This document shows, in pieces, positions 37,445-39,698 of a stretch of DNA of 64,000 nt; the stretch's first letter is position 1; every line of letters starts with the position of its first letter. The notes beneath the pieces are model-generated. The model was not told the origin of the DNA. It made no database searches and was given only the letters and a program-made list of their open reading frames with translations. The DNA is taken from the NCBI RefSeq assembly GCF_015999335.1, contig NZ_JAEACP010000001.1:186001-250000 (forward strand), in the 5' to 3' direction. A program made the position numbers and the translations under genes. Source of the DNA: Tabrizicola soli (GTDB lineage: Bacteria > Pseudomonadota > Alphaproteobacteria > Rhodobacterales > Rhodobacteraceae).

Positions 37445-38059
37445 ATGATCGTCACCCGCCGCTTCGCCCTCTTCGGGGCCGCCGGACTTCTACTTTCCGC
37501 CTGCGTGGGCGCCAGCTTCAGGACCGACTACGACCCGCTGCCCGCAAGCCTGGCCCAGGCCTGGCGCCTCGCCGATGTCCGCGTCAGCGTGCCGCGCTCG
37601 CTTTCGGTCAGCGAGGCGAAGACCCTCCTGCCCGATGCCGACATCGTCTGGCGCGAGGATCCGATGGGCGACCGCCATGCCCAGGTGGCCGCGATCATCG
37701 ACACCGCCGTCACCCGTGGCGCCCAGGGCCTGCGCGGCAAGCGGCCGGTCCGCATCGACATCACCGTGACCCGCTTCCACGCCCTCACCTTCGAGGCCGA
37801 GACCCGCGGCCAGGATTGGGGCGTCCACAACATCGACTTCACCGCCCGGGTCACCGATGCCGCCACCGGCGAGGTGCTGGTTCCCCCCACCCCGATCCGG
37901 GCCGAGCTTCCCGCCCTCGCAGGCCAGGCGATGCGCCAGGCGCGGCAGAAGGGCATCACCCAGAAGTCGATGATCACCGACCATGTCGCGCGCACCGTGG
38001 CGGGCTGGCTGGGCATCGGTCCCGACAACCGCGGCGAATTCAACCGCCAGGGCAACTGA
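37445..38059 (+). CDS. Lipoprotein of unknown function
   Basis: 204 residues with a lipoprotein signal MIVTRRFALFGAAGLLLSAC (lipobox LLSAC) and a conserved-looking body: VRVSVPRSLSVSEAKTLLPD, DIVWREDPMGDRHAQV, DWGVHNIDFTARVTDAATGE. It is probably anchored to the outer or inner membrane facing the periplasm. I think it belongs to a Rhodobacteraceae-restricted DUF (DUF6778-like), from memory only. ATG 37445 is chosen because AAGAGG lies seven bases upstream; the ATG at 37412 is weaker. A 9-base inverted repeat GCAACAAGG/CCTTGTTGC lies upstream at 37313-37380. Confidence 0.7.
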   Translation: MIVTRRFALFGAAGLLLSACVGASFRTDYDPLPASLAQAWRLADVRVSVPRSLSVSEAKTLLPDADIVWREDPMGDRHAQVAAIIDTAVTRGAQGLRGKRPVRIDITVTRFHALTFEAETRGQDWGVHNIDFTARVTDAATGEVLVPPTPIRAELPALAGQAMRQARQKGITQKSMITDHVARTVAGWLGIGPDNRGEFNRQGN

Positions 38060-38122
38060 TCCCTGCCCGCCTGCCCTCCGTCCGGCTTGCGCGCCGCTGC
38101 CCGGCCGTGCTAGGCCCGGCGC

Positions 38123-38167
38123 ATGACGACGTTGCAGAACCTCCGCATCTGCTGCATTACCCGCTGA
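38123..38167 (+). CDS. Putative cysteine leader peptide upstream of cysS
   Basis: A 14-codon frame encoding MTTLQNLRICCITR, with two adjacent Cys codons (TGC TGC at 38150-38155) four to five codons before its TGA. It lies 80 bases before the cysS start. There is no ribosome site before its ATG; a -35-like TTGCGC (38087-38092) and a TGCTAG element (38108-38113) would place transcription start near the ATG, so it may be leaderless. Downstream, GGCGCGGG (38174-38181) pairs perfectly with CCCGCGCC (38211-38218). A ribosome slowed at the Cys codons could control cysS; this is inference. Confidence 0.5.
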   Translation: MTTLQNLRICCITR

Positions 38168-38246
38168 CCCAAGGGCGCGGGCGCTTCGTCATTCCCATGG
38201 ATGAGTGAACCCCGCGCCAAGGGCCGCGCGTTCAGGGACGACTGAC

Positions 38247-39641
38247 ATGGTGACCATCCGCCTGACCAATTCGAAGACCCGCCGGAAGGAGGATTTCGTT
38301 CCGATCGACGACCGGGACGTGCGGATGTATGTCTGCGGCCCCACCGTCTATGACCGGGCACATCTGGGCAACGCCCGCCCCGTCGTGGTCTTCGACACCC
38401 TGTACCGGCTTCTCCGCCACGTCTACAGGCCGGAGCATGTGACCTATGTCCGCAACTTCACCGACGTCGACGACAAGATCAACGCCGAGGCCTTGCGCCG
38501 CCAGCAGGCCGGCGCGCCGGGAACGCTGGAAGAGCTGATCCACCAGCGGACCGAGGAGACCATCGCCTGGTACCACGCCGACATGGACGCGCTCGGCGCG
38601 CTGCGCCCCAACCACGAGCCGCGGGCGACGGAATTCATCGGCCAGATGATCGCGATGACCGAGGGCCTGATCGCCTCCGGCCATGCCTATGCCGTCGAGG
38701 GGCATGTGTTGTTCCGGGTGCGGTCCTACGAGGATTACGGCAAGCTCTCCGGCCGCTCGGTCGACGACATGATCGCGGGCGCAAGGGTCGAGGTCGCGCC
38801 GTTCAAGGAAGACCCGATGGATTTCGTCCTCTGGAAACCCTCCAGCGGCCAGGAACCCGGCTGGGCCTCGCCCTGGGGCAAGGGCCGCCCCGGCTGGCAC
38901 ATCGAATGCTCGGCCATGAGCCATGAACTGCTGGGCGAGAGCTTCGACATCCACGGCGGCGGTCTCGACCTGCAGTTCCCGCACCACGAGAACGAGATCG
39001 CCCAAAGCGCCTGCGCCCATCCCCACGGCGACTTCGCGCATTACTGGCTGCACAACGAAATGCTGCAGGTCGAGGGCAAGAAGATGTCCAAGTCCCTGGG
39101 CAATTTCTTCACCGTGCGGGATCTGCTGGACCAGGGCATCCCGGGCGAGGTGATCCGCTTCGTCTTCCTGATGACGCATTACCGCAGCCCGATGGACTGG
39201 ACCGCCGAGAAGGCGCGGCAGGCCGAGACGACGTTGCGGAAGTGGCGTGCGGCGACGGCTTCGGTCGCGCCCTCCGCGCCGCTCGCGGGCGTTGTGGAGG
39301 CGCTGGCTGACGACCTGAACACCGCCGGCGCTCTGGCGGCTCTGCATGCCGCCGCAGGCGAGGGAGATTGGCCGGGGGTGAAGGCTTCCGCCGCGCTTCT
39401 CGGCCTGCTGACCGCAGGAATGGGCGATTGGGCCATGGCGCCGCAGGTCGACCTGTCGGCGCAAACCGAGCGGCTGTCCGATCTCCGCGCCGCCGCCATG
39501 GCCTCCAAGGACTTCTCCGTCGTCGACGCCCTGAAATCCGCCCTGGTCGCCGCCGGGGTCGAGGTGCGCATGTCCAAGGCCGGGGTCGAGCTCGTCCCCG
39601 GCCCCGACTTCGACCCGGCAAAACTGGAGGCGCTCCAGTGA
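38247..39641 (+). CDS. cysS: Cysteinyl-tRNA synthetase
   Basis: 464-residue class I aminoacyl-tRNA synthetase charging tRNA-Cys. Zinc and active-site residues are in [20 protein letters not shown] (first Cys and HIGH-like HLGN) and the later GWHIECSAM with [10 protein letters not shown]; the KMSKS motif appears as [13 protein letters not shown] at 38247 is preceded by AGGGACGA. The 5' region holds the Cys-Cys leader frame described separately; the 3' side has two tandem perfect palindromes. Confidence 0.96.
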
Positions 39642-39656: not shown

Positions 39657-39698
39657 AAATTTCTTCGAAGAAATTTGCAAAATCCTTCGAAGGATTTT
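39657..39698. repeat. Tandem perfect palindromes / terminator after cysS
   Basis: Two adjacent 20-base perfect palindromes: AAATTTCTTCGAAGAAATTT (39657-39676) and AAAATCCTTCGAAGGATTTT (39679-39698), separated by GC and sharing the core CTTCGAAG. They are strikingly AT-rich for this genome. The second, ending in TTTT, can act as an intrinsic terminator for cysS. I recall similar elements as frequent in Rhodobacteraceae intergenic DNA. Confidence 0.7.

Follow-up and report, generated by a model that had tools for sequence, protein, structure and literature searches.

The leader of cysS, the cysteinyl-tRNA synthetase gene of Tabrizicola soli, is probably a ribosome-mediated, cysteine-responsive attenuator, and cysS would very probably be upregulated when Cys-charged tRNA is scarce. 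The leader element is real and conserved across Rhodobacteraceae, as judged from sequence comparisons, and is of the same kind as an already described motif, uORFC-8-2. The locus lies within a 64,000-nucleotide stretch of contig NZ_JAEACP010000001.1, hereafter the window, and its parts are collected in Table 1. A first-pass annotation of this DNA had proposed a leaderless, cysteine-sensing leader peptide before cysS with an alternative pairing downstream. All of the elements on which it was built (the 14-codon frame, two Cys codons, the 8-base stem, TCGTC, GACGA, CCCGC and GCGGG) hold in the sequence, and the proposal is well supported by conservation.

Table 1. Features of the cysS leader in the window
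Feature	Position	Strand	Basis
-35 box CTTGCG of predicted promoter P1, -37 to -32 from the AUG	38086..38091	+	window sequence and consensus of 149 copies
-10 box GCTAG of predicted promoter P1, -14 to -10, with TA at -12/-11 from the AUG	38109..38113	+	
uORF, ATG to TGA, encoding MTTLQNLRICCITR and stop, predicted leaderless	38123..38167	+	window sequence; 149 distinct copies
TGC TGC, tandem Cys codons 10 and 11 of 14, -5/-4 from the stop	38150..38155	+	
Arm A, CCCGC, within the last uORF codons	38160..38164	+	A:B swap test and tree co-changes at the inner stem
Arm B, GGCGCGGG, core GCGGG at 38177-38181; partner A or C	38174..38181	+	
Pyrimidine-rich tract, weak in the window, mostly U-rich in relatives	38182..38199	+	
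Arm C, CCCGCGCC, partner B	38211..38218	+	alignment, swap test, tree co-changes
AGGGA, likely cysS ribosome site, 8 nt 5' of the ATG at 38247	38234..38238	+	inferred from sequence
cysS, cysteinyl-tRNA synthetase	38247..39641	+	TIGR00435, E 4.9e-121, above the curated cut-off

Distribution of the leader and its uORF

A degenerate pattern for the end of the peptide, ICCITR followed by a stop, was found in 7 of 198 family genomes, the window's own included, compared with 0 of 198 for the reversed pattern, and all seven sites are followed by a CysS-like start within about 110 nt, as judged by eye. A covariance model (R1), built on 59 rows with the window among them, matches 237 of 295 Rhodobacteraceae genomes. 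It finds a single clear site in the window's own genome, which supplied one of the training rows (E 2.5e-9, next best 1.03), and among the matches listed with both positions it ends 19-51 nt 5' of the CysS match, on the same strand, in 24 of 24 genomes. The first-pass annotation had suggested looking for the peptide and its Cys codons upstream of cysS in relatives, and both are found there: besides the R1 matches, 146 of 149 copies, which were selected in part for Cys, carry a Cys codon in at least one of positions -4 and -5. An Rfam search of window positions 37900-38500 (E up to 5) returned two matches, both far below the gathering score. A frame arisen by chance and without function would agree with the shortness of the uORF, its GC-rich leader and the unremarkable fold of the window's 138-nt leader stretch alone (z -0.64, not above chance), yet this explanation is hardly credible in view of the number of family genomes matched, the promoter geometry and the pair co-changes.

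Across a sample of 385 alphaproteobacterial genomes, for which the share belonging to the window's family is not shown, R1 matches 10, and the strong matches are five, all from that family. The remaining five (E 0.0009-0.008) were taken as chance, with no such leader visible by eye in the stretch of each that was inspected. Short Cys-rich ORFs precede cysS in 16 of 29 usable family loci versus 2.1 in shuffles, and in 3 of 28 usable loci from other families of the class versus 1.4 in shuffles, one locus in the family and two in the others being unusable. Among the best 80 CysS loci, in which nearly all named matches are Rhodobacterales judging by name, the full motif, meaning an ATG frame that includes Cys plus both arm B and arm C, is present in 57. 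The closest CysS match in this set is Gemmobacter straminiformis (L001), at 78%. A similar leader, MKTAFAIIGCCIIR, is seen in a Neomegalonema MAG (L055, 1260-1520), with a longer and different downstream region in which a long hairpin is apparent by eye. From this locus, the cysteine sensor may be older than the switch formed by arms A, B and C.

The comparisons below draw on 180 scanned loci, of which 149 distinct copies were kept, 26 lacked the full motif and, by subtraction, five were identical copies. Twenty-three of the 26 fall within the best 80 CysS loci; of these, L022, L031, L044, L047 and L055 do have a uORF with Cys when scanned less strictly, and L032 and L080 start close to cysS. 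L179, L180 and L191 are R1 matches that the motif scan missed. Because the scan that yielded the 149 copies required arm B, arm C and one or more Cys among the last nine residues, counts of these three features are partly so by construction; the promoter boxes, pair co-changes and second promoter-like element (P2) lie outside the selection. The cysS start was located in 135 of the 149, and where several ATGs fitted, the one giving a length nearest 14 codons was chosen.

The uORF is preceded by conserved promoter-like boxes. Positions -36 to -31 from the AUG read C/T-T-G/T-G-C/G-C across the 149 copies (T at -35 in 90%, G at -33 in 68%), and positions -14 to -11 read G-C/T-T/A-A (G at -14 in 64%, T in 62% or A in 36% at -12, A at -11 in 71%), with C at -1 in 83%. 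The boxes stand at -35 and -12 relative to the start codon, so transcription from P1 is predicted to begin on the A of the AUG and the uORF to be leaderless. The uORF is 13 or 14 codons long in 139 of 149 copies and ends in TGA in 139 and TAA in 10. Tandem Cys codons are present in 120 copies, with Cys at -4 in 117, at -5 in 123, at -1 in 73, at -6 in 42, at -9 in 30 and at -10 in 19; it occupies at least one of -1, -4 and -5 in 148. Given the size of a ribosome footprint, a ribosome stalled with Cys at -1, -4 or -5 should cover arm A; with the codon at -5 or -4 in its A site it should extend roughly as far as the end of this arm and thereby hinder A:B. The codons at -9 and -10 would leave it free and count against an attenuator.

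An alternative reading of the same frame is that it encodes a sequence-specific arrest peptide, or senses another signal such as isoleucine supply or redox state. In favour of this, the frame is Ile-rich, and 143 of 149 copies use ATT for the Ile codon at -3. However, the gene downstream encodes the enzyme that makes Cys-tRNA, the N-terminal half of the uORF is variable, and the Cys codons (406 TGC and 26 TGT in the last ten codons) differ between copies in how many there are and where they stand, which fits codon sensing. These features make an arrest peptide or another signal improbable. As a further observation on isoleucine, the -3 codon lies at 38156-38158 in the window, and positions -6 to -8 mix ATT and ATC.

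Competing pairings and the level of control

Sequence comparisons support competition between the end of the uORF (arm A) and arm C for arm B. In the window, arms B and C are exact reverse complements, and 79 nt separate the uORF stop from the cysS ATG; across the 149 copies arm C lies 34-48 nt after arm B, mostly 43-45. When each arm was scored against partners swapped among the 149 loci, none of 2000 swaps was as good as the native set for A:B (z -11.0) or B:C (z -8.9), compared with 12 of 2000 for the A:C control (z -2.5); these swaps, like the shuffles below, retain the relatedness among loci. In the alignment of 59, 84.5% of B:C cells and 82.3% of A:B cells are paired, and none of 500 shuffles reaches the native covariation score or the native number of paired cells in either helix. 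Further pair types are not above shuffles in this alignment (280 of 500 for B:C, 424 of 500 for A:B), nor are pairs with both sides changed for A:B (426 of 500 as good); the corresponding value for B:C, 21 of 500, was likewise counted as not above shuffles.

Changes at individual pairs were also placed on a tree of CysS with 60 tips. Both sides of stop+3:B-5 changed on 12 branches, six of them from pair to pair, versus 1-8 branches and 0-1 pair-to-pair changes in six slid controls. Both sides of B-1:C+5 changed on seven branches, four from pair to pair, versus 0-6 branches in its slid controls, with pair-to-pair counts of 0, 0, 0, 0, 3 and 0. The pair stop+1:B-3 changed on both sides on four branches (three pair to pair) and B-2:C+6 on five (one pair to pair), the latter being paired in 27 of 60 tips; stop0:B-2 is paired in only 28 of 60. 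Pair-to-pair co-change was not found on this tree for the A:B core pairs, since arm B hardly varies, and in the 149 copies the constancy of its core is by construction because the scan required GCGGG, GTGGG or GCGGC, along with an arm C core.

The CCCGC:GCGGG pairing, put forward in the first-pass annotation as an alternative, is the conserved one, and its hairpin overlaps the uORF stop. Folded by itself, the window's leader stretch forms a small stem holding the Cys codons; the pairings supported across copies are A:B and B:C. Mutually exclusive, conserved pairings of this sort are what a ribosome-mediated amino acid attenuator has, and they are present here. In the window, A:B scores -10.8, weaker than the -13.7 obtained with partners from other loci, and B:C scores -19.5, stronger than the corresponding -17.8. 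At equilibrium the full RNA of the window is predicted to form B:C at 0.99 and A:B at 0.01, compared with means of 0.18 and 0.51 over 135 loci. With B:C so favoured at equilibrium, A:B in the window could work only while the RNA is still being made.

The uORF, its Cys codons, the promoter geometry and the competing pairings thus have the support of comparative sequence evidence, and they suggest the following course of events. Transcription from P1 would begin with the A of the uORF start codon, and ribosomes would load directly onto this 5' AUG. With ample Cys-tRNA the ribosome would reach the stop and leave, and arm A, formed by the last codons and the stop, would pair with arm B; the resulting hairpin, which most relatives extend with a U-rich tract, would lower cysS expression, most simply through transcription termination. 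With scarce Cys-tRNA the ribosome would pause while its A site holds the Cys codon at -5, -4 or -1, covering arm A wholly or partly, so that arm B would be free to pair with arm C and cysS would be expressed. In this scheme we infer the translation and stalling, the reach of the footprint, the direction of the response and the level of control.

Evidence on the level of control is divided. A standard scan for intrinsic terminators found none in the window and none in L007; a small terminator-like site in L045 is not the A:B stem and is unrelated to it. At least five T in 8 nt follow GCGGG in 55 of 149 copies when counted from a start 0-2 nt after it and in 98 when counted from 0-5 nt, compared with three and four T, respectively, in the window, where the longest T run in the pyrimidine tract is TT and no 8 nt hold more than four T. 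In 145 of the 149 copies the segment between the A:B stem and P2 could be summarized as 55% T, 5% A and 10% G, and this T-rich segment is plausible as an imperfect terminator tail. Part of the conservation of the U run is, however, explained by P2. Because its A:B duplex is weaker and its U tract poor, termination in the window may be leaky or replaced by translational control; with no standard terminator found there, both levels of control remain candidates.

Under translational control, formation of A:B would leave arm C free to pair with the region of the cysS ribosome site and block initiation, and a ribosome stalled on arm A would let arm B take arm C and open the site. Besides the window's lack of a standard terminator, predicted openness of the ribosome site agrees with this: it averages 0.47 with arm A covered versus 0.36 with arm B taken over 135 loci, is higher with arm A covered by more than 0.05 in 77 and lower in 13 (Wilcoxon p 1.6e-12), and in the window is 0.64 versus 0.29. 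The difference is nevertheless partly built in, because removing arm B leaves a GC-rich arm free. Arm C also scores better than swapped partners with the ribosome site (z -4.8) and with the region downstream (z -4.9, 0 of 2000 in each case), although relatedness may inflate swap scores, as the A:C control indicates. In the window itself the arm C duplex with the ribosome site (-7.4) is weaker than with swapped partners (-10.0), and that with the downstream region (-14.9) is stronger (-11.1). Pairing of the ribosome site with arm B (z 1.0) or arm A (z 4.8, worse than swapped) received no support. Translational control would also leave the U-rich tract unexplained; it is the less likely reading but a serious alternative to termination.

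A different route to the ribosome site had been proposed in the first-pass annotation, in which TCGTC (38186-38190), in the loop after arm B, would mask GACGA (38237-38241) at the cysS ribosome site. The complementarity is literal in the window and in L083, and the whole B-C loop pairs with the ribosome site better than swapped partners do (z -3.0, 2 of 2000 as good; -14.1 for the window's own pair, -10.3 on average when it is combined with other loci). As a shared feature of the leader, the masking did not stand: the two motifs occur together in 2 of 135 loci, L086 from the window's own genus keeps TCGTC without GACGA, the U-rich tract alone is unexceptional (z -1.3, 210 of 2000 swapped pairs as good), and the loop and ribosome site share perfect matches of much the same length when pairs are swapped. 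Masking by TCGTC is thus a very unlikely basis for the control of cysS.

A second promoter-like element

In relatives of the window, for example L007 and L010, a second promoter-like element sits between arms B and C. This element, P2, consists of TTTYC, 17 nt and GCTA; the TT at C-27 and the GCTA at C-6 are conserved, the spacer between them is not, and the two boxes are the same distance apart as those of P1. Its -35 sequence, TTTYC, is unlike that of P1 (CTTGGC). In 95 of 149 copies this single site holds the best P1-type -10 box found 3' of the uORF, and the pattern TT-N19-GNTA occurs between the uORF and cysS in 129 of 149 versus 7.0 in shuffles. Of 21 related loci that lack the full motif, 17 also carry it ahead of cysS (1.2 in shuffles), some of these loci, L001 and L056 among them, being without any Cys uORF; in other families of the class it occurs in 3 of 28 loci. 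Because P2 is kept where the hairpins are not, it is more likely to act as a promoter than as an element of the RNA. On inspection of the sequences, P2 is absent from the window (38182-38210), L086 and L083.

These distributions lean, if only somewhat, towards an arrangement of cysS in Rhodobacterales in which two stacked promoters share the attenuator sequence. P1 would give a leaderless transcript that senses cysteine, and P2, whose -35 box lies within the U tract and whose -10 box adjoins arm C, a short transcript beyond the reach of the sensor. The window's lineage would have lost P2 and retained the sensor only, and the nearest relative outside the genus on the CysS tree, Gemmobacter straminiformis, would have P2 without the uORF. 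If this arrangement is correct, part of the apparent terminator U run is a promoter box, P2 transcripts could hide a cysteine response in reporters unless P1 and P2 are separated, and the relatives of the window that lack P2 would be the cleanest test case. In Gemmobacter straminiformis P2 is kept and the scan found no Cys uORF, the mirror image of the window.

Relation to described attenuators

The first-pass annotation knew of no described attenuator with this peptide; one is, however, in the literature. Brewer et al. (2021, PMC8632094) predicted computationally the motif uORFC-8-2, with 145 examples exclusively upstream of cysS in Rhodobacterales, comprising a uORF in which Cys codons stand in tandem, two stems, the first of which holds these codons, and a U run, and proposed that stalling at the Cys codons permits read-through; the available text calls its own proposed functions speculative until tested. 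A literature search on the name uORFC-8-2 returned this paper alone. As described there, the motif shares with the window its place directly upstream of cysS, the order, the AUG-initiated uORF, tandem Cys codons with UGC dominant, predicted stems and the proposed attenuation under scarce Cys-tRNA. It differs in that its Cys codons are usually codons 14 and 15, as opposed to 10 and 11 of 14, and in the intrinsic terminator and U run postulated for it. Because the window has no terminator-like site and at most four T in 8 nt, it is not a terminator-type member; by homology and position it is a divergent relative of uORFC-8-2. The word leaderless is absent from the available text of that paper and a second promoter is unmentioned in it. 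The predicted leaderless start, the arm competition followed on a tree, the likely internal promoter and its absence from the window are what the present sequence analysis adds.

The present analysis provides independent support and mechanistic detail for a motif so far offered only as a computational prediction, which would provide an essential enzyme with a cysteine sensor throughout a large family of bacteria. A leaderless start and a probable internal promoter would change how the motif should be tested. Among described systems, the trpL attenuator resembles the cysS leader in its alternative hairpins and in a short leader ORF that carries codons of the cognate amino acid, and differs from it in its Trp codons, its biosynthesis operon and its canonical terminator. 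Attenuators of the trpL type in Alphaproteobacteria are represented by Sinorhizobium peTrpL (PMC7298713). Leaderless polycysteine short ORFs are described from mycobacteria (Canestrari et al. 2020, as cited in PMC9031893 and PMC13236596). In these accounts they resemble what is predicted for the window's leader in their leaderless start, contiguous Cys codons and cysteine-responsive attenuation of genes downstream; they belong to another phylum and precede other genes, for example cysA2 (PMC4633059, a forerunner).

At the other end of the gene, two adjoining palindromes, AAATTTCTTCGAAGAAATTT and AAAATCCTTCGAAGGATTTT, were noticed by eye 3' of cysS (39657-39698). They are A/T-rich amid a GC-rich stretch and are perhaps a terminator or a repeat element.
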